Virus record (IMG/VR): IMGVR_UViG_3300025087_000001
Span: 62,001 to 126,000 of that record
Strand: one strand, 5' to 3'
Source: a virus
Length of the DNA: 64,000 nt
Positions within the stretch are counted from its first letter, which is position 1. The number at the start of each line of letters is the position of its first letter. The notes under the pieces were generated by a model. That model was given only the letters and a program-made list of their open reading frames with translations, did not search any database and had not been told where the DNA came from. The position numbers and the translations under genes are program-made. This document shows, one piece after another, positions 4,462-57,621 of the stretch.

Positions 4462-6356
4462 TATTCATCCTTACTTAATTTATCTTTTTTAACATTATAG
4501 GATAAGCTACTAGCTCTCTCCATACCCTTCTTATCAACACTTCCACCTGTAAACGATTGTTCTTTAGTTTCTTGAACCTCTTCTCCCTGTACTCTACCAG
4601 CAATATCCTGAGTATCCGAAACACCTGGAAGTATTCCTTCATTAGCATTATCTTTAAGTCTTTCTCTATACGAGTCAGTATGTTGCATTTGTGGGTAAAT
4701 TGGTAAATCTTTAGTACTATTTAAATTGGTTCCGAAGGACAATATCAAATTAGTTCTAAATGATAGTTTTCCATCTGGATCTTCTTTCATATTGTGAGTA
4801 ACTTGTTCGATATGATAAACACAATCATCAAACTCTAAATTATCTCCTACAGATATTGGGTGTACTATTCCAACAGAAGATATCGCTCCAGATTCTTTTA
4901 ATTGGCCAGCATTTAGCATGTCAAATAAAAGATAGGCCCAGTTTCTAGATTGGGTTTCTGATATTCCACCTGGGTAATCAAATACACTACTTGCAATAAT
5001 TGGCTTTAAACCATGTCTTTGAACGTCCTTTCCATCATAGAAAAAATTACCCTTACCTACTTGCATGGACCTATTCTCAGCATCACTAGCGGCTAAGCTT
5101 CTACCAAACACTTGAACAAAGTTAACCCTAGCTGCCTCATCTTTACCCAAATCAACCATAAACATCAAATCAGACGATATTTTCCATCTGGGTAATGATA
5201 AAAATTTAGTATATGGTTTGGGTTCTGGTTTAACAGGTGTAGTAACTTGAGGAGACACATAATGCTCTGATGAAAATGGTTTTTGTCTAACTACTACAGT
5301 TGGGTAAACTCGATTGTTATTTTCTGGACTAACCCGATATGTTGTGTACATTTCGTTAACAGTTCCATTCAAATATGATTGTAACACACTCCAAATTTCT
5401 TTTTGATTGAAATTCTCAGCAGCTAAGATTCTCCAACCTTCTATTTCTTTACCGATAGTATAGAAATTAGAATCGTTTTTGTGATACTTAGCATTTGGAT
5501 TAAATCCTTTATATTCTGATCCTTGATCTTCTTTGATTTGCTGAGCTGGATTATCCCATATGCCGAAAATAAAGTTGTAAATATCTGGAATTACTGGCTC
5601 GCTAACTCCTAACGATTGTCTACCTAACAATCTCGCTACAGTACTTGGTACTTTAAAATGTACGTTTTGGGTAGGTGATATTTGAAAGTCGGTATTTTTT
5701 AATCCTGTTCCCAACAATAACTTAAATAGAATAATCATTATTTCTTGAATGTTTTTCTTGTTACTAGCAGAGGTAGCTATTTCGTTCCAATACTTAGCAA
5801 ACTGAGATATAAATAAAACATCTGACTGTTGGAATACCGTACTAATAACTGGATCATAATAAAGTTGAGTTTTCATTTCGGTAAATCCAAAACCATGAAC
5901 TACAAAATAATAACTCTTCAATCCGCTTTCTGGATTAATTTCTATTTTACGCCTAACTGTTTGTACTTTAAATAAGCCTTTAAATCCGTCATGAAATTCA
6001 TTGATAGGTTGGCTCTTGAGGGCTCTTTGGTAAATCTCATAGGCTTTGTCTTGAAAATTAACCATATTGATTAATACATAATCCCCAGGATGAACCGCTG
6101 TTGAGTAATTAATATCTCCAGCCCTAAGTGTTGCTGAAAAAGAAGACGTTACGTTTTGTTTTGTATTTGTTACCTGTAAATCAACACAATCGTTTATTAC
6201 AACCAAAGGCTTTCTAGTTTCAACTTCAGCTTCCTTATAATTAACAGTATCTCGGTTATTCCATCTAACAAAGGTCATTACATAAGCTGGGGAAGTCTGA
6301 TGACTATCTTCCGTATTTTTATAAATATGCCTAATATATGCTTTGCTATTTGACAT
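4461..6356 (-). CDS. Baseplate hub protein (gp27 / gpD-like)
   Basis: A 631-residue protein with no enzyme motif but a beta-rich N-terminal domain (about residues 30-120, with GDYVLINM), typical of hub proteins that bridge tail tube and spike. Start at 6356 is preferred over an ATG two codons earlier because AAGGG then lies nine bases upstream; the start shares one base with the tape-measure stop (TAATG). Position between tape measure and spike is the main evidence. The C-terminal 80 residues are polar and probably flexible. Confidence 0.65.
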   Translation of the reverse strand: MSNSKAYIRHIYKNTEDSHQTSPAYVMTFVRWNNRDTVNYKEAEVETRKPLVVINDCVDLQVTNTKQNVTSSFSATLRAGDINYSTAVHPGDYVLINMVNFQDKAYEIYQRALKSQPINEFHDGFKGLFKVQTVRRKIEINPESGLKSYYFVVHGFGFTEMKTQLYYDPVISTVFQQSDVLFISQFAKYWNEIATSASNKKNIQEIMIILFKLLLGTGLKNTDFQISPTQNVHFKVPSTVARLLGRQSLGVSEPVIPDIYNFIFGIWDNPAQQIKEDQGSEYKGFNPNAKYHKNDSNFYTIGKEIEGWRILAAENFNQKEIWSVLQSYLNGTVNEMYTTYRVSPENNNRVYPTVVVRQKPFSSEHYVSPQVTTPVKPEPKPYTKFLSLPRWKISSDLMFMVDLGKDEAARVNFVQVFGRSLAASDAENRSMQVGKGNFFYDGKDVQRHGLKPIIASSVFDYPGGISETQSRNWAYLLFDMLNAGQLKESGAISSVGIVHPISVGDNLEFDDCVYHIEQVTHNMKEDPDGKLSFRTNLILSFGTNLNSTKDLPIYPQMQHTDSYRERLKDNANEGILPGVSDTQDIAGRVQGEEVQETKEQSFTGGSVDKKGMERASSLSYNVKKDKLSKDE

Positions 6357-8803
6357 TACCATTTACCCTTATTTGATTTCATTGCGGAGTCTTTGCCCAA
6401 ATCTATTATTTGACTTTGTAAATTACCTCTTTTCCAGCTTTCATCTATTGAACCAGTATCGGCAGTTCTTTTAATACTAACCATTATTCCTTGTAACATT
6501 TCTAACGAACTTGCTCCGTTTTCAATTGCTTTTTGAAACAACTTCATTGACTCATCTACATCGCTGGATGAATTTAATAGCATTTTAGTGGATTCAGAGT
6601 ATTTATTAGATATATCAGCAAACTCATCAATGAATTTATTTAATCGATTCATTTGAGATAATTGGTCAGCAGCCTCAGCTTTTTCACCGGCCAAATAAGG
6701 AGATTTTCCACCTCTAGCAGCAATATCTCCTAAAGTAGACTGTTGGCCACCTGTCATATCGCCTCTGGACATTGCTGTTACATATGACATTTGGTCTCTA
6801 AAATTTAAACCCCTAAACTCTGATCCTCGTTCTGTACTTAAAGCACCTGTAATGTTCGTATATAGATCATTTAACCCACCACCACTAACTGCTTTTGTAA
6901 TATCTTGACCCGACATTCCTTCAATTGATTTACCGAATTGTTCTAACTTTTGTAATGTTTCGCCCCTAGGTGTAGATCCTCTTAGTTCAAACTTACGCTT
7001 GATATCTTTTAATTCATTTATATCCTTAGCCCCAGTTTCTTTCATAAAACGTTGGACCATTGGATTATCTTCGGTCATTTGTGATATTGGCATTCCTAAG
7101 AAACTACTGGTCAATTCAAAATTATTGGACATCCCACCTAATGATTTTTGCCCCTCTTCTGTTCCTGAATATGCCCATTTAAAAGCACCCCTAGCCCCTC
7201 CCAAATCTCCAGATTCTTGCTCCCTCATTTGGAAAGCTGTCATAGCCGATTGTAATCCAACTCCAGATGGTGTCATTGTGCCCCTAGCTATTTCTTCTGA
7301 AATTCCACCAGCAGATACACCTTTTTGAGTAGCTAATTGGGTAGTGATATTTAAAAAGTTGCGAGTTTCCTCAACCATTTTAGAATCATTAATACCAGCT
7401 TTCATAGCGTCATACATTATTTTTTCTAAGACCTTTTCTTGTGATTTTTCACCAAAGCCAGATTCTAATCCTTTTATTCTACCAGCTACTTGACCAATAT
7501 TAGTAATGCCGCCCTCTTTTAATAATTGCATTTGTTTTAAATTGTTTAAATCACCAGAACCAGTAGTAATTCCGCTAGCTTGCATTAGTTGGCCACCCAA
7601 CTCCATACCGGTACTTCTGGTCATTCCAGCTCGATTAATTTGACCCAACATTCCTTCTGGATTTGTAGCGTTTTCTTGGCCAAACATTTGTTGGAATTGT
7701 CTATATTGATTACCGCTTCTTCCAAATTCATCGTAAGCCATAGTTCTTTGGAAGTTTTTGAGTTTTTCGGCAGCCTCTACTGACCTAGCTTTTTCTAACC
7801 CTTCTTTAGTTAATGTTGATTGGTATTCTTCTGTTCCTAGAAGTGCGCCACGGGATCTTTTATCTGTCATAGCGGCGCCAGCATAACCTACAGCAGCCCC
7901 AATTGGACCTGCGGCAGCAAAACCAGCAACTCCAGCCCCTATCTTCCCCCAAGTCGGCATTGCAATTCCAGCAATATCCCTTAATCTTTGAGAGCTCATT
8001 TCGTTTCCAGCTACTTCTAATCCTCTTTGTCGTTCTTTAGAAAATATAAGGTTTTCAACACCTCTACCTTGAGCTTGTTCCTGTAAGGAAACAGTTGCCA
8101 TTGATGTAGCTGACCCCTGAGCCATTGCCAAATTACGTTGTTTTTCTGCAAATTCAGTCCAACCAGATAATCCTACTTGACCCGCCGCCATTGCTAAGCC
8201 ACCCGCTCCAGCCAATCCACCTAAAGCCGATAAACCTCTAGATAGTCCAACACCTAATCCTTTTTGTCTTAAAGCCTTGTAATTACGCATTCTTTGTGTG
8301 TAAATAAGTCCAGTTGAGTCGTCGTCTTCTTGACCACCGCCAACACCTTTGAATCCTTCTAATCCAGAGCCTAATGATTTAGCTTGTTGACTAATCATAG
8401 TATTTTGTTGGACTATTTCTTGGCCCCTTTTCTTAATCGTGTCTATTTCTTCCTTTAAAAGAGTTATTCTAGCTTTCTGGATTACATTTAGATTATCTTC
8501 GATCTTTTCTAATTTCTTTAATTCTGATCCTCTGGATAATAGTTCTTTAGATTCATGTTGGAGCTTACGAGCGTTTAAATTGAACATTTCCCTTAACTTA
8601 TCTACGTTATCTTGATTATAATCACCGAAAAAAGCCCTGGTATGTTCACCCATTTTAGACTGTGGGGAATAAGATTGTTGAGCCTGTGAGAAGGTTTTTT
8701 GGGATTGTTGGAGCTGCCTAAGCTTTTGTTCAAGCTTTTGAATCTGAGTATCGAACTCAGTATTATCCATCACGGCTTTTATTAGTATTTTTTTTTCAGT
8801 CAT
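6356..8803 (-). CDS. Tail tape measure protein
   Basis: 815 residues, with a long N-terminal coiled-coil region (about 5-140, rich in Q, L, K and E), then a Gly/Ala-rich hydrophobic segment (about 190-215, ALGGLAGAGGLAMAAG) and another near 290-310, then a long helical, glycine-interrupted tail. This is the classic tape-measure layout, and the gene immediately precedes hub and spike. With the usual rule of about 0.15 nm per residue it would specify a tail of roughly 120 nm. It is preceded by a candidate late promoter at 8849-8863. Confidence 0.8.
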   Translation of the reverse strand: MTEKKILIKAVMDNTEFDTQIQKLEQKLRQLQQSQKTFSQAQQSYSPQSKMGEHTRAFFGDYNQDNVDKLREMFNLNARKLQHESKELLSRGSELKKLEKIEDNLNVIQKARITLLKEEIDTIKKRGQEIVQQNTMISQQAKSLGSGLEGFKGVGGGQEDDDSTGLIYTQRMRNYKALRQKGLGVGLSRGLSALGGLAGAGGLAMAAGQVGLSGWTEFAEKQRNLAMAQGSATSMATVSLQEQAQGRGVENLIFSKERQRGLEVAGNEMSSQRLRDIAGIAMPTWGKIGAGVAGFAAAGPIGAAVGYAGAAMTDKRSRGALLGTEEYQSTLTKEGLEKARSVEAAEKLKNFQRTMAYDEFGRSGNQYRQFQQMFGQENATNPEGMLGQINRAGMTRSTGMELGGQLMQASGITTGSGDLNNLKQMQLLKEGGITNIGQVAGRIKGLESGFGEKSQEKVLEKIMYDAMKAGINDSKMVEETRNFLNITTQLATQKGVSAGGISEEIARGTMTPSGVGLQSAMTAFQMREQESGDLGGARGAFKWAYSGTEEGQKSLGGMSNNFELTSSFLGMPISQMTEDNPMVQRFMKETGAKDINELKDIKRKFELRGSTPRGETLQKLEQFGKSIEGMSGQDITKAVSGGGLNDLYTNITGALSTERGSEFRGLNFRDQMSYVTAMSRGDMTGGQQSTLGDIAARGGKSPYLAGEKAEAADQLSQMNRLNKFIDEFADISNKYSESTKMLLNSSSDVDESMKLFQKAIENGASSLEMLQGIMVSIKRTADTGSIDESWKRGNLQSQIIDLGKDSAMKSNKGKW

Positions 8804-35945: not shown

Positions 35946-37247
35946 TTAATACCCTTCGTTTACTTTAGGTGGTTTTGGGGTTTCTGGTTTCTTATAAGCA
36001 TCTTTGGGGTTACCAGAATTGCTAGGTAAATTACTCATCCCTAACATTTTTTCCACTTTCTTAGTGGCTACCACTTTTCTTGATTGTTTATTACCCCTTT
36101 CTTTATCTACAATAACTACTTTTTTAGCAGCTTTCTTTTTATTATTGGCAATTCTCATTTGTTGGATAGGGTCTTTGCCAGCTTCTCTTTGTTCTTTAAA
36201 TTTATCCCTATCTTGTAATCTTTTTTCAGAAATATGTTTAATATCCTTACTTGGCTTATTAGCTGGCTTAGCTTTTTCTAAACTAGCCTCTTCTGACTTA
36301 GGAAGGTTGGGTTTTTTCATTTGTTTTTGTTCATTTATTTTTAATTTAACCTCATCCTTGGCAGATTCTTGTGTTGCACGTCTAATCGCAGGAACTTCTT
36401 TATATTTCCTAGAAAATCTGGTTTTTTCACCTACGTTTGAAGATCCTTCTCCATGGTACGGCTTATGAACACCTTTATCTCTACCAAAAACTTTCTGAGA
36501 ACCAACAACTATTCTATCGTTTCCTCTTTTTATTCTATCTTCTCTTTTTTTATCATCGGACTTGCCCTCGTCAACTATAGCTTTCTTTAATTCCCTCTTT
36601 TTTAAAAAAGAACCTAATTTAGGGGACTTTAATCCACAAGCTTTATCTACTTCGGCTTTCATAAAAGCTGGTTTTTTGTCCTTAGTTACTTTATCAATTA
36701 TTTTTTCGCCGTCTTTTTTTTCATCTTTTTCATTGTCTTCCACTTCGGATTCTAATTTTTCATGTTCTTCTACGTTCTCGTCACCCTCTTGTTGTTCTGG
36801 AGACTCACTTTCCTCTTCAATATCGTCGTCGTCATATTCGTCTCTTTCGTGAGCTTCCGCATCTGCTTGCTGTTCTAATTCTTCTTCGTCACTTTCGGAC
36901 TCGGTAGAGTCATGAATTTCTTTTTCCTCAGGAGATAAGCCTTGCTCATGATCTGGAATCTCTTCACCATCTTCTGACTCAACATCTTCATTATCAATGT
37001 CTTCTGACTCACCATCTAATTCAGTATTTCCACTATCATTATGTTTTTTCTTAGCAGATTTAAGTGATTTACTAGCAGCTAATTGCTCGGGACATTCAGT
37101 ATTTTGAGTAACGGGCTCCGATCCAGCTTCAATTTCATGAGCAGTATTTGATTTTTTTAAGTTACTATTTTGATACATTTTTTTAACATGGTCTAAAATC
37201 TTAATAGCCGCTTCTGCTGCTGTATACTTTTTGTTAATATTTTCCAT
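35946..37247 (-). CDS. Large highly charged virion-cluster protein
   Basis: 433 residues of very biased composition: an acidic block at about 40-190 followed by a basic block at about 190-420. The N-terminus, NKKYTAAEAAIKILDHVKKMY, resembles the start of the next gene (KKTYTPLEVALELKKSLYK), suggesting a shared targeting or assembly segment. Probably disordered internal or scaffold-like protein. Preceded by a candidate late promoter. Confidence 0.6.
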   Translation of the reverse strand: MENINKKYTAAEAAIKILDHVKKMYQNSNLKKSNTAHEIEAGSEPVTQNTECPEQLAASKSLKSAKKKHNDSGNTELDGESEDIDNEDVESEDGEEIPDHEQGLSPEEKEIHDSTESESDEEELEQQADAEAHERDEYDDDDIEEESESPEQQEGDENVEEHEKLESEVEDNEKDEKKDGEKIIDKVTKDKKPAFMKAEVDKACGLKSPKLGSFLKKRELKKAIVDEGKSDDKKREDRIKRGNDRIVVGSQKVFGRDKGVHKPYHGEGSSNVGEKTRFSRKYKEVPAIRRATQESAKDEVKLKINEQKQMKKPNLPKSEEASLEKAKPANKPSKDIKHISEKRLQDRDKFKEQREAGKDPIQQMRIANNKKKAAKKVVIVDKERGNKQSRKVVATKKVEKMLGMSNLPSNSGNPKDAYKKPETPKPPKVNEGY

Positions 37248-38626: not shown

Positions 38627-38641
38627 TAAAGATTGCTATTT
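38627..38641 (-). promoter_or_regulatory. Candidate late promoter before 37609-38607
   Basis: Minus strand AAATAGCAATCTTTA, 20 bp before the ATG at 38607, overlapping the stop of the upstream gene by a few bases. Confidence 0.55.
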
Positions 38642-39391
38642 GTAGTCTTTTAAGATAGACGGTAGGATGGTTTGTTCCCACTGCTCACACGCCCATGAAA
38701 ACACCGAATCCATAAAATTCTTCGCCTCTAGACCAGGATGGACCCATTTCCCCTGAGATTGGTGAGATTCGTGTATAATTCTAAAAACCATATGTTGTCT
38801 TTTAATACTTCCATCACTCATTTTATGTTGATAAATAGAAAGTCCCTTCAATGCCGGATCTTTAGCCATCGGACTAGGCCTAGCAGAGTCTATATCAAAT
38901 TTATGGAGTAATCCAAGTCTAGGACTACCATCTTGATTATGTTCTATTTTCTTATAACTAACACCTTGCTGCTTTAAAAAAGCTTTGATTTGATTGGTTA
39001 AGTCCTGGGCTTTTGGTGTTTGTTCCGATGGATTTTTAGACATCTCGAATGGGATAATAGCATATTTTTTTCCATCTTTACTTGTTTTAGCAGATTTACC
39101 ATTAAGTAATTCAGACATCCATCCACTTTTCCTCCCCGACTCAATAAACATAGCTTCTTCTTTTAGTGAAACTATCCATAGATTAGCCTCAGGGTTGGTA
39201 AATTCTATAGCATCTTGGTATTTTTTTCTAAGGGATTTTAAACCGTCTCTTGACACCTCATAAAGTCGTGCGTTTGTCATCGAAGCCAACGCTTGTACCC
39301 CCTGCACCAACTCAGCTTCAACCTGTTTCTTAACTTCTTTGAAGTCTTTTACAATAGATTCAATATCAATATCAAGTTTTAAATTAGACAT
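38636..39391 (-). CDS. Tail completion / HK97 gp10-like protein
   Basis: 251 residues. The C-terminal WVHPGLEAKNFMDSVFSWACEQW resembles the conserved end of gp10-like minor tail proteins (W-x-HPG...F...A...W). N-terminal 60 residues helical. Immediately downstream of the frameshift extension of the cyclase-like protein. Start overlaps the GAGGAA site in the upstream gene end. Confidence 0.55.
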   Translation of the reverse strand: MSNLKLDIDIESIVKDFKEVKKQVEAELVQGVQALASMTNARLYEVSRDGLKSLRKKYQDAIEFTNPEANLWIVSLKEEAMFIESGRKSGWMSELLNGKSAKTSKDGKKYAIIPFEMSKNPSEQTPKAQDLTNQIKAFLKQQGVSYKKIEHNQDGSPRLGLLHKFDIDSARPSPMAKDPALKGLSIYQHKMSDGSIKRQHMVFRIIHESHQSQGKWVHPGLEAKNFMDSVFSWACEQWEQTILPSILKDYK

Positions 39392-39394
39392 CTT

Positions 39395-39700
39395 CTATTG
39401 TTCCTCTGGCCCTTCTTTAGTATCCCTATATCCCATATGAGGAACCGACCCTCTACGCTTCCCACCTTCGTGGGCAGAATGGTGAGGAGCTTTTTTCATT
39501 TGGGATTTATTGTAGTTTTTAGAGGTAGGATCAGAATCAAAATCACGCAGAATTCCACGCCTCACGCCTCTCCAGGATTCACGCCCCGTTGTACCATCAA
39601 CCACTTTCATTTTACCGTCTTTTTCAGCACCTACTGGAGATTGTGGTATAGGAATGTGTTTAGTTGGATTGTCTGGAAGTGAACTTATTGATTTAAGGGG
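39395..39700 (-). CDS. -1 frame extension of the mCpol-like protein (101 residues)
   Basis: Open in the -1 frame from the slippery A9 tract at 39701-39709 to a stop at 39395, without any stop codon in between. The product starts PLKSISSLPDNPTKHIPIPQ and continues into a basic region (GRESWRGVRRGILRDF, KKAPHHSAHEGGKRRG). An ATG at 39610 lies within it but has no ribosome binding site. Most simply it is the C-terminus of a 567-residue fusion made by -1 frameshifting or transcriptional slippage; a sequencing error in the homopolymer would also give a single gene. Confidence 0.6.
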   Translation of the reverse strand, partial: PLKSISSLPDNPTKHIPIPQSPVGAEKDGKMKVVDGTTGRESWRGVRRGILRDFDSDPTSKNYNKSQMKKAPHHSAHEGGKRRGSVPHMGYRDTKEGPEEQ

Positions 39701-41097
39701 TTTTTTTTTACGTCATCTGGGTTTTGTAAAGCATCTTCTGGCATTTCAGAATCATCTTGAAACTCCCCAGCATGAGGTAAACTTTCTTCAATCTCACTAC
39801 GACCATCGGCATCTTGCATATCTTCTTCTGGATCATAACCATTTAGTTGTTTGGCCATTTGAATCATAGACCTAAGCATAGTAATGAGAGATTGATATAA
39901 TTCTGGATTATTTTCTTTAGCGTCTTCTAACATAGCCTTATTTTGCTTAAAACCCTGCAATGCATTGAAAATATCTTGTTTTAATTCAGAACTATTATCT
40001 TCTTGACCGTCTTGCATATCTTCAGGTATTTCTTCGCCTTCTGACATTTCTTCGGATTCATTAGGGTCTTGTTGGTCAGATAAATGGCCATGTATCATAT
40101 TAGATAACATATCATATCTATCGCCACCTTCTTCTGAATTTTCTTCAGGCATCTCTTCACCCTCAGAGTCTCCCTCTAAACCATCCTCATCTTGTGGGCC
40201 AACATAGTCCTCTTCGTCTTTTGAATTTTCTTGTTGATCGCCTTGATATGTTAAGTCACCATTAGCAACGTGTTCGGGTTTTAATTCTTCTATTTCGTCT
40301 GGATTTATATCGAAATAATTCTCGTCATCTTCGGATAATTCTGGAGCTTCTTCAGATATATCTTCTAAATTTTCCTCTGAATTTTCTTCACCTTCCTCGG
40401 ACACATCCTCTTCAGGCATTTCTTCGCCTTCTGTGGACTCATCAATATTGTCAATTTCTGGTTCCGTAGATTCCTCGTCAAAACCAGTTTCCTTAACTTC
40501 ATCTTCTGGAACAGTATCACCTTCGGACATATCTTCTTCAGAGACTTCTTCAGAGACTTCTTCGCTTGCTGGAATATTATCTTCCTCAGGTATACCTTCT
40601 AAATCACTATCTTCTGACTCTTCTGGAACATCGGAGTCGTCCTCAATTGAGGAATCTGCATTTTCCTGAATATTTTCATCTTCTGGAATTTCAGAATCTT
40701 CATCTACATTGTTTTCTGCTAAAAATTTATCTACTTCTGGTGAATACTCAACAATTTGGTTCTTTCCATTCATCTTACCGTAGATTAAAGCCTTGGAAGA
40801 CTCGCTCATTGTTGAACCAACGCCAATAGTTAAACTATGGCCAGACATCTCTTTATATCTATCACGAATTCCTTCTAATTCTTGAGCAGCTTCAATTGGA
40901 ATCTCAAATATTGATTCGTCCCCAGACGACACTATCACTCGACCTTGTTTAGATTCAACCCATTGGTCTATTTCAGAATGGTTATCTTTAATTGATTGGG
41001 ATAATTTGCCCAGACCTTCGTGATCGTCAGAAGCAATAGCTTGGCCAAGTTCAGAACCGATATTATCACCATTAATACTAACATAAATTTTATCCAT
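39685..41097 (-). CDS. mCpol/GGDEF-like nucleotide-cyclase-fold protein with long acidic tail
   Basis: 470 residues. N-terminal domain, about residues 1-115: IYVSINGDNIGSEL (4-17), VIVSSGDESIFEI (54-66), LTIGVG (79-84) and ALIYGKMNGKNQIVEY (93-108). This order of strands (GDxIG; GDE; L-T-I-G-V-G; A-L-x-x-x-K-x-x-G-K-N) is that of minimal CRISPR polymerase (mCpol) and GGDEF nucleotidyl cyclases, which make cyclic oligonucleotides or cyclic di-GMP. The first metal-binding aspartate of the D-G-D motif is Asn9 here, while D11 and D60 are present, so activity is uncertain. Residues 130-470 are extremely acidic, with SEEM/PEE repeats. Preceded by its own operon neighbours in the virion cluster. Confidence 0.65.
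   Translation of the reverse strand: MDKIYVSINGDNIGSELGQAIASDDHEGLGKLSQSIKDNHSEIDQWVESKQGRVIVSSGDESIFEIPIEAAQELEGIRDRYKEMSGHSLTIGVGSTMSESSKALIYGKMNGKNQIVEYSPEVDKFLAENNVDEDSEIPEDENIQENADSSIEDDSDVPEESEDSDLEGIPEEDNIPASEEVSEEVSEEDMSEGDTVPEDEVKETGFDEESTEPEIDNIDESTEGEEMPEEDVSEEGEENSEENLEDISEEAPELSEDDENYFDINPDEIEELKPEHVANGDLTYQGDQQENSKDEEDYVGPQDEDGLEGDSEGEEMPEENSEEGGDRYDMLSNMIHGHLSDQQDPNESEEMSEGEEIPEDMQDGQEDNSSELKQDIFNALQGFKQNKAMLEDAKENNPELYQSLITMLRSMIQMAKQLNGYDPEEDMQDADGRSEIEESLPHAGEFQDDSEMPEDALQNPDDVKKNPLNQ
39700..39710 (-). other. Slippery site A AAA AAC in an A9 tract
   Basis: Minus strand GTA AAA AAA AAC CCC: the heptamer A_AAA_AAC lies in the zero frame. Shifting -1 gives CCC CTT AAA as the next codons and opens the 101-residue extension. 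No strong hairpin or pseudoknot was found by eye directly downstream. Confidence 0.6.
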
Positions 41098-56625: not shown

Positions 56626-57621
56626 ATGAAAATAATTACGATTAAAACACAAAAAGACTTAGACAATTTACCCTTAACTTTCAAAGAATTTACTGAAATA
56701 GAGATTAGAAGCTCAGAAGTTATTGAAATCAGAAAAGCTTGCGATAACTCAACGGTTACAGCTTACGGTAACTCAACGGTTAGAGCTTGCGATAACTCAA
56801 CGGTTACAGCTTACGATAACTCAACGGTTACAGCTTACGGTAACTCAACGGTTAGAGCTTGCGATAACTCAACGGTTAGAGCTTGCGATAACTCAACGGT
56901 TACAGCTTACGGTAACTCAACGGTTACAGCTTACGGTAACTCAACGGTTACAGCTTACGGTAACTCAACGGTTAGAGCTTGCGATAACTCAACGGTTACA
57001 GCTTACGGTAACTCAACGGTTACAGCTTACGGTAACTCAACGGTTACAGCTTACGGTAACTCAACGGTTACAGCTTACGGTAACTCAACGGTTACAGCTT
57101 ACGGTAACTCAACGGTTAGAGCTTGCGATAACTCAACGGTTACAGCTACCGAAATGAGTATTATTACCGTAGAATCAACATCTGTTAAACTAGAAGCTAG
57201 TTTAAACTCTGTAATAATATTACGACAAAATATTAAATTTAAAAAAGTAAAAACGGTTACTGTCGTTAGACAAAAACAAGTAGAGCATAATTTAAAAACC
57301 TTTAAAGAGGTTTACCCAGAAAACGTAGTAGACGGTGAAATAATTCTCTATAAATCGGTTAGCCCAACTAACCTAACAGACTTTAAAACAGGTAAAATTA
57401 AATATGAAATTGGTAAAACAATTGATTGCCCAGATTTTGACCCAGATAAAAACAGAGAATGTGGCGGTGGCTTGCACTTATCTCCAACCCCAGAATTAGC
57501 ACTTAACTACAATCAGGGTAAGTTGTTGAAGTGTAGGGTAAAAGTAAAAGACATGGTAATTTACAGTAAGTGTATTACAAAAGTAAGGTGCAGAAAGGTT
57601 TTTGTAGAGGGCGAGGTTTAA
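56626..57621 (+). CDS. 8-residue-repeat protein with DUF7666-like C-terminal domain
   Basis: 331 residues. Residues about 40-175 are 17 tandem copies of an eight-residue unit of form (G/D)NSTV(T/R)A(Y/C), built from a 24-bp DNA repeat, likely forming a regular beta structure with alternating Tyr and Cys. The C-terminal 120 residues (VDGEIILYKSVSPTNLTDFKTGKIKYEIGKTID...ECGGGLHLSPTPELAL...KVRCRKVFV) match a domain often found in phage proteins of unknown role. Leading gene of a rightward early cluster behind a strong promoter. Confidence 0.7.
   Translation: MKIITIKTQKDLDNLPLTFKEFTEIEIRSSEVIEIRKACDNSTVTAYGNSTVRACDNSTVTAYDNSTVTAYGNSTVRACDNSTVRACDNSTVTAYGNSTVTAYGNSTVTAYGNSTVRACDNSTVTAYGNSTVTAYGNSTVTAYGNSTVTAYGNSTVTAYGNSTVRACDNSTVTATEMSIITVESTSVKLEASLNSVIILRQNIKFKKVKTVTVVRQKQVEHNLKTFKEVYPENVVDGEIILYKSVSPTNLTDFKTGKIKYEIGKTIDCPDFDPDKNRECGGGLHLSPTPELALNYNQGKLLKCRVKVKDMVIYSKCITKVRCRKVFVEGEV
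56743..57150 (+). repeat. 24-bp tandem repeat, 17 copies
   Basis: Unit GATAACTCAACGGTTACAGC plus TTAC, or the GG/AGAGCTTGC variant. Copies differ only in three linked positions, so the array is recent or kept uniform by recombination. It encodes the repeat region of the protein at 56626-57621. Confidence 0.9.

Follow-up and report, generated by a model that had tools for sequence, protein, structure and literature searches.

In the window, the 64,000-nucleotide stretch of viral DNA analyzed here, an ORF predicted to encode an acidic 470-residue protein (positions 39685 to 41097, minus strand) ends just past a run of nine A residues, behind which the -1 frame remains open. The question raised by this locus is whether the run serves as a programmed -1 frameshift site that appends a basic domain to the acidic protein, as had originally been predicted from a single sequence, and by which route such a fusion would be made.

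Slip site and reading frames

The zero-frame ORF comprised an mCpol (minimal CRISPR polymerase) domain, a long acidic region, and a conserved helical segment. By direct reading, the minus strand at the slip site was GAC GTA AAA AAA AAC CCC TTA AAT CAA TAA. The A9 run (39701 to 39709, minus strand) contained two overlapping in-phase heptamers, A AAA AAA (39709 to 39703) and A AAA AAC (39706 to 39700), and was directly followed by four C residues (39700 to 39697). The zero-frame tail, CCC TTA AAT CAA TAA (39685 to 39699, minus strand), carried the stop codon at 39687 to 39685, and the predicted termination four codons past the slip site was confirmed by this reading. The -1 frame extension, delimited by direct reading and by homologues (39395 to 39700, minus strand), opened with CCC at 39700 and closed with TAG at 39397 to 39395; the sequence thus agreed with the prediction of an in-phase A AAA AAC and a -1 frame open for 101 codons, plus a stop, to 39395. 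The two products also differed in charge as anticipated for an acidic protein joined to a basic extension (ORF, -125 and pI 4.1; extension, +6 and pI 9.8).

Across the window, 32 in-phase A AAA AAN sites were found in 59 ATG-initiated ORFs of at least 100 amino acids. Only the two overlapping sites of the A9 run fell close to the 3' limit of their ORF and were followed by an extended open -1 frame, and the A9 site was therefore considered more than a chance occurrence. Asp-N digestion is predicted to release DVKKNPLKSISSLP if the ribosome slips at A AAA AAC, DVKKKPLKSISSLP if slipping occurs at A AAA AAA or the mRNA is A10, and DVKKNPLNQ from the unshifted end.

Slip site and extension among relatives

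A search of viral contigs with the N-terminal domain produced 14 loci, to which an alignment of the extension added further loci. Collapsing near-copies left 12 distinct frameshift-type loci besides the window, with L012, a single-frame locus, kept apart. Every one of the 13 distinct loci, the window included, had an acidic ORF ending at an in-phase A AAA AA(G/C) and a basic domain encoded in the -1 frame. The heptamer was A AAA AAG in all 12 non-window loci, where the stop codon followed 0 to 1 codons on (four in the window).

Extension homologues in these 12 loci were 36 to 52% identical to the basic domain of the window, and 11 columns were invariant among 14 aligned sequences. Pairwise dN/dS values of the extension ranged from 0.08 to 0.49 among pairs with estimable dS, no ratio being given for several saturated pairs; the extension is under purifying selection. 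In every locus measured, the zero-frame product had a pI of 4.1 to 4.3 and the extension a pI of 9.8 to 10.8. A helical-looking segment (ELKQDIFNALQ...MAKQLN; 39841 to 39987, minus strand), recognized by eye in translations, recurred in homologues, including that of Myxococcus phage Mx1. Detection of the extension required alignments, as a lone single-sequence query with it returned no match in viral contigs or INPHARED, and GTDB species genomes contained no match to the mCpol or extension alignments. The structure model of the extension was too poor for a fold search (pLDDT 67); the alignment behind one structure model left out the Mx1 row.

Two relatives carried the domain in frame. In Mx1 (WNM70340.1), both parts were encoded in one frame with the basic domain at the C terminus, and the profile matching this protein was built without Mx1. 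In L012, a sister of L007, the extension was in frame at an A9 run (L012:2131-2139). A run of eight in L012 would yield the stop pattern of L007 and L020, so the L012 fusion could reflect a difference in A-run length. These two relatives imply that a ratio of two products is not universally required. For L012, translation would terminate a few codons on after a -1 slip or from an A8 message, and the roles of normal and shifted reading may be reversed there.

Downstream hairpin

A hairpin was found in 11 of the 13 distinct loci, with the first paired base about 3 to 7 nt past the heptamer; the hairpin of L007 was weak, and the window copy had none. The 3' arm encodes a conserved Leu-Pro. The free third base of the Leu codon varied (A, G, or U) with a facing base that was always complementary, and the base at the first position of that codon (C or U) was likewise matched, giving compensatory pairs at codon position 3 (U-A, C-G, and A-U) and position 1 (G-C and A-U). 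Mean duplex energy was -10.75 kcal/mol for arms of the same locus and -5.99 kcal/mol for arms swapped between loci, and none of 200,000 arm-swap permutations equaled the real pairing, figures that are uncorrected for shared ancestry and would be lowered by such correction. Hairpin energies were below those of dinucleotide shuffles (Stouffer z, -8.3) and of synonymous recodings (Stouffer z, -6.5), both values being uncorrected for relatedness. Compensation at the third codon position, which spans three Watson-Crick types, is regarded as a stronger point for a conserved hairpin than the energy and permutation figures.

A stimulatory 3' structure, a common but not obligatory component of frameshift sites, was a property of the family and not of the window copy. 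No hairpin was found in the 60 nt 3' of the window slip site (minimum free energy, 0.0), and long-range folds, which appeared only over at least 100 nt, were judged not meaningful. The earlier report of no stimulatory structure therefore held for the window copy but not for most relatives. The proposed -1 recoding itself was supported by comparison of homologues, with the heptamer and -1 domain in 12 other loci and 11 covarying hairpins. From these comparative patterns, programmed -1 frameshifting is likely conserved in this family of large tailed phages, distant relatives included.

Possible routes to the predicted fusion in the window copy

The window copy was atypical in both its heptamer, which ends in AAC and not AAG, and its missing hairpin. 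In Escherichia coli, A_AAA_AAC is reported to be much less shifty than A_AAA_AAG, and A_AAA_AAA likewise less shifty; bacterial RNA polymerase slips efficiently on a run of nine, such as that used by Thermus dnaX (PMC5009743). With AAC and no hairpin, any fusion produced from the window copy must depend on its A9 run, through either ribosome or polymerase. A homopolymer of about nine or more, as expected for transcriptional slippage, was present in the window, L007, and L020.

It is conceivable, though rated somewhat improbable, that the window fusion arises mainly by transcriptional slippage, in which the polymerase adds an A and the resulting A10 messages are read in one frame. The run has the length at which bacterial polymerase slips efficiently (PMC5009743), and of the A9 loci the window lacks a hairpin and L007, which resembles it, has only a weak one. 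Against this, several homologues combine a strong hairpin with an AAG-ending run no longer than A6 or A7, a ribosomal design, and L020 has both A9 and a hairpin, which argues that A9 is not a general substitute for the hairpin.

An error in the run length itself is improbable. If the true run were A10, the window gene would be one uninterrupted ORF leading straight into the extension, as the original prediction had noted; the same had been claimed for A8, which instead reads GTA AAA AAA ACC CCT TAA and stops. The missing window hairpin and the in-frame domains of Mx1 and L012 are compatible with A10, but the -1 arrangement in 12 other loci makes A9 the expected state. Homopolymers of 9 to 10 are usually right in short-read calls. 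A second assembly of the exact window locus, sought for the length of the A run, was not found, and a search for a phage tRNA-Lys found no tRNA within the 64-kb window.

Programmed frameshifting remains the preferred reading for the family. In the window, production of the fusion probably continues, whether through unstimulated ribosomes slipping on A AAA AAA or A AAA AAC, through RNA polymerase slipping on A9, or through both.

Gene neighborhood and the downstream frame

The next gene, predicted to encode a 251-residue protein of phrog_16819 (38636 to 39391, minus strand), was syntenic in homologues, and its start abutted the extension stop. Gene order was phrog_1004 head protein, mCpol gene, phrog_16819, a PF23932-like protein (phage termination family; sub-threshold match), and tail sheath, the last of which matched the annotated sheath of Mx1. 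Synteny was kept on both sides of the gene, Mx1 included, and the gene matched no PHROG family. Its position in a head-neck module suggests a virion or assembly protein produced in two forms.

In most loci, the extension stop overlapped or abutted the start of the next gene, and translation of the two may be coupled. That the main purpose of the shift is to link or adjust downstream translation, with the fusion protein incidental, is highly improbable: this overlap speaks for it, but the extension has 11 invariant columns, evolves under purifying selection, and is in frame in Mx1, and the next gene appeared by eye to have its own Shine-Dalgarno (SD) sequence in several loci.

The chance that the extension is expressed independently, from a start codon of its own or by reinitiation, is close to nil. 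The window has an ATG at 39610, and some homologues have an ATG or TTG near the beginning of the conserved part, but four (L011, L013, L020, and L022) lacked ATG, GTG, and TTG in the -1 frame ahead of the conserved residues, and the start codons of the remaining loci were unconserved and without a good SD sequence, which makes a separate gene very unlikely for the family. The window ATG had an SD match of just 3 nt, in keeping with the original prediction of an internal ATG without a ribosome site, and starting there would remove the conserved LPD and VGA motifs. Missing starts, the missing SD sequence, and the in-frame Mx1 domain largely refuted this possibility and upheld the earlier view that the frame is unlikely to be a gene of its own.

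Further features of interest were found in other ORFs. A neighboring acidic/basic gene ended at an A run with a -1 extension in L034:10374-10898, L010:11404-11922, and L012:4822-5334. The -1 tail was of the "EKFLGLGGT" type, and a similar tail was in frame in L007, L006, L009, and the window (homologue at 35946 to 37247); this gene is a possible second recoding site. PNLPKSE and KSE motifs recurred near acidic-basic junctions of two genes (window 35946 to 37247 and acidic ORFs of L005, L010, L011, and L026) and are possibly protease sites. A 331-residue ORF of the window (56626 to 57621) contained many near-identical NSTVTAYG/NSTVRACD repeats.

Amino-terminal mCpol domain

Residues 5 to 118 of the window protein (40744 to 41085, minus strand) were assigned to an mCpol palm domain by both Pfam and structure matching. 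The match to PF18182 exceeded the curated cutoff (E = 7.2e-16). The domain was modeled with a pLDDT of 93.5, and the closest Foldseek match of the model was Panoptes OptS (PDB 9mnr; TM score, 0.79; 25% identity), with additional support from PDB 9nwn and from a search of the phage's own genome. OptS requires D6 and D57, and replacement of either with Asn abolishes synthesis (PMC12657218). In the window protein, these positions were Asn9 and Asp60; all 10 phage sequences in the alignment had Asn at the D6 position and retained the D57 residue. The pair of catalytic aspartates expected of an active cyclase was accordingly incomplete, and both mCpol motifs were lost in the Mx1 protein. Because the catalytic D6 is replaced by Asn throughout, the phage mCpol domain is probably catalytically dead. 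The original description of the protein as cyclase-like was thus apt for its fold (Pfam; TM score, 0.79) but probably not for activity. The same mCpol fold was also found in a 365-residue phage protein in BFVD (A0A6J5L1I5; TM score, 0.92), so phage mCpol proteins may extend beyond this family.

Comparison with known systems

The phage relatives share A AAA AAG with E. coli dnaX, and 11 of the loci have a hairpin a few nucleotides downstream, as dnaX does; unlike here, the dnaX shift gives the shorter product. E. coli dnaX also has an upstream SD-like stimulator. The resemblance to the lambda G/GT tail assembly chaperones lies in a morphogenesis gene whose first ORF, close to its 3' end, would be extended by a C-terminal domain in a minority -1 fusion. 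Unlike G/GT, the mCpol gene is flanked by head genes on one side and tail-terminator/sheath genes on the other, with the sheath downstream of it, and does not adjoin the likely tape measure gene (window 6356 to 8803), a candidate chosen on length and sequence. Identification as a tail assembly chaperone was rejected, as the gene did not lie between tail tube and tape measure.

Phage structural proteins of two lengths are produced by frameshifting in T3/T7 gp10, A2, and A118/A500/PSA (PMC5009743). As in these phages, one gene is predicted here to yield a main product and a version lengthened at its C terminus, with relatives that are in frame or shifted; in contrast, the known cases involve major capsid or tail proteins, many of them bearing Ig-like tails, and not an acidic mCpol protein with a basic domain. 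The hairpin-less window copy has a run of nine, as in Thermus thermophilus dnaX slippage, whereas the phage family overall has a ribosomal design. With Panoptes OptS (PDB 9mnr/9pd0/9nwn), the phage protein shares the fold and the GDDVG motif but differs in being encoded by a phage, in its fused acidic region, and in the Asn at catalytic D6.

Proposed mechanism and implications

In the proposed mechanism, most ribosomes would stop and release the acidic mCpol-headed protein, and a minority would slip -1 to make an acidic-basic fusion with a tail of about 100 residues, so that one message would yield two proteins sharing an N-terminal part. Judging from gene position and charge, the acidic form would be an assembly or virion component that multimerizes via its catalytically inactive mCpol palm domain, and the rarer fusion may use its basic tail to anchor this assembly to DNA or an adjacent virion protein. 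A more speculative proposal, to which we assign a low probability, is that this lineage co-opted an mCpol signaling domain, with loss of catalysis, as the multimerizing head of a two-form virion protein, and that the dead domain may still bind nucleotide and thereby interfere with host cyclic-nucleotide immunity.

The mechanism is canonical, and the gene is new as a case of frameshifting; no earlier report of a frameshift in this gene was found in a literature search that covered few subscription journals. The mCpol literature found concerns bacterial defense and not a gene of a virion module. Few morphogenesis-region genes are known to have conserved programmed frameshifting, and the finding adds one more phage gene to them, supported comparatively by the slip site, the covarying hairpin, the missing start codon, and the in-frame counterpart. 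Automatic annotation will truncate the protein at the stop codon and lose the extension. Within one family, the states represented include A6 to A7 with a hairpin, A9 without a hairpin, and in-frame fusion, a range that allows tests of how recoding signals are acquired and lost.
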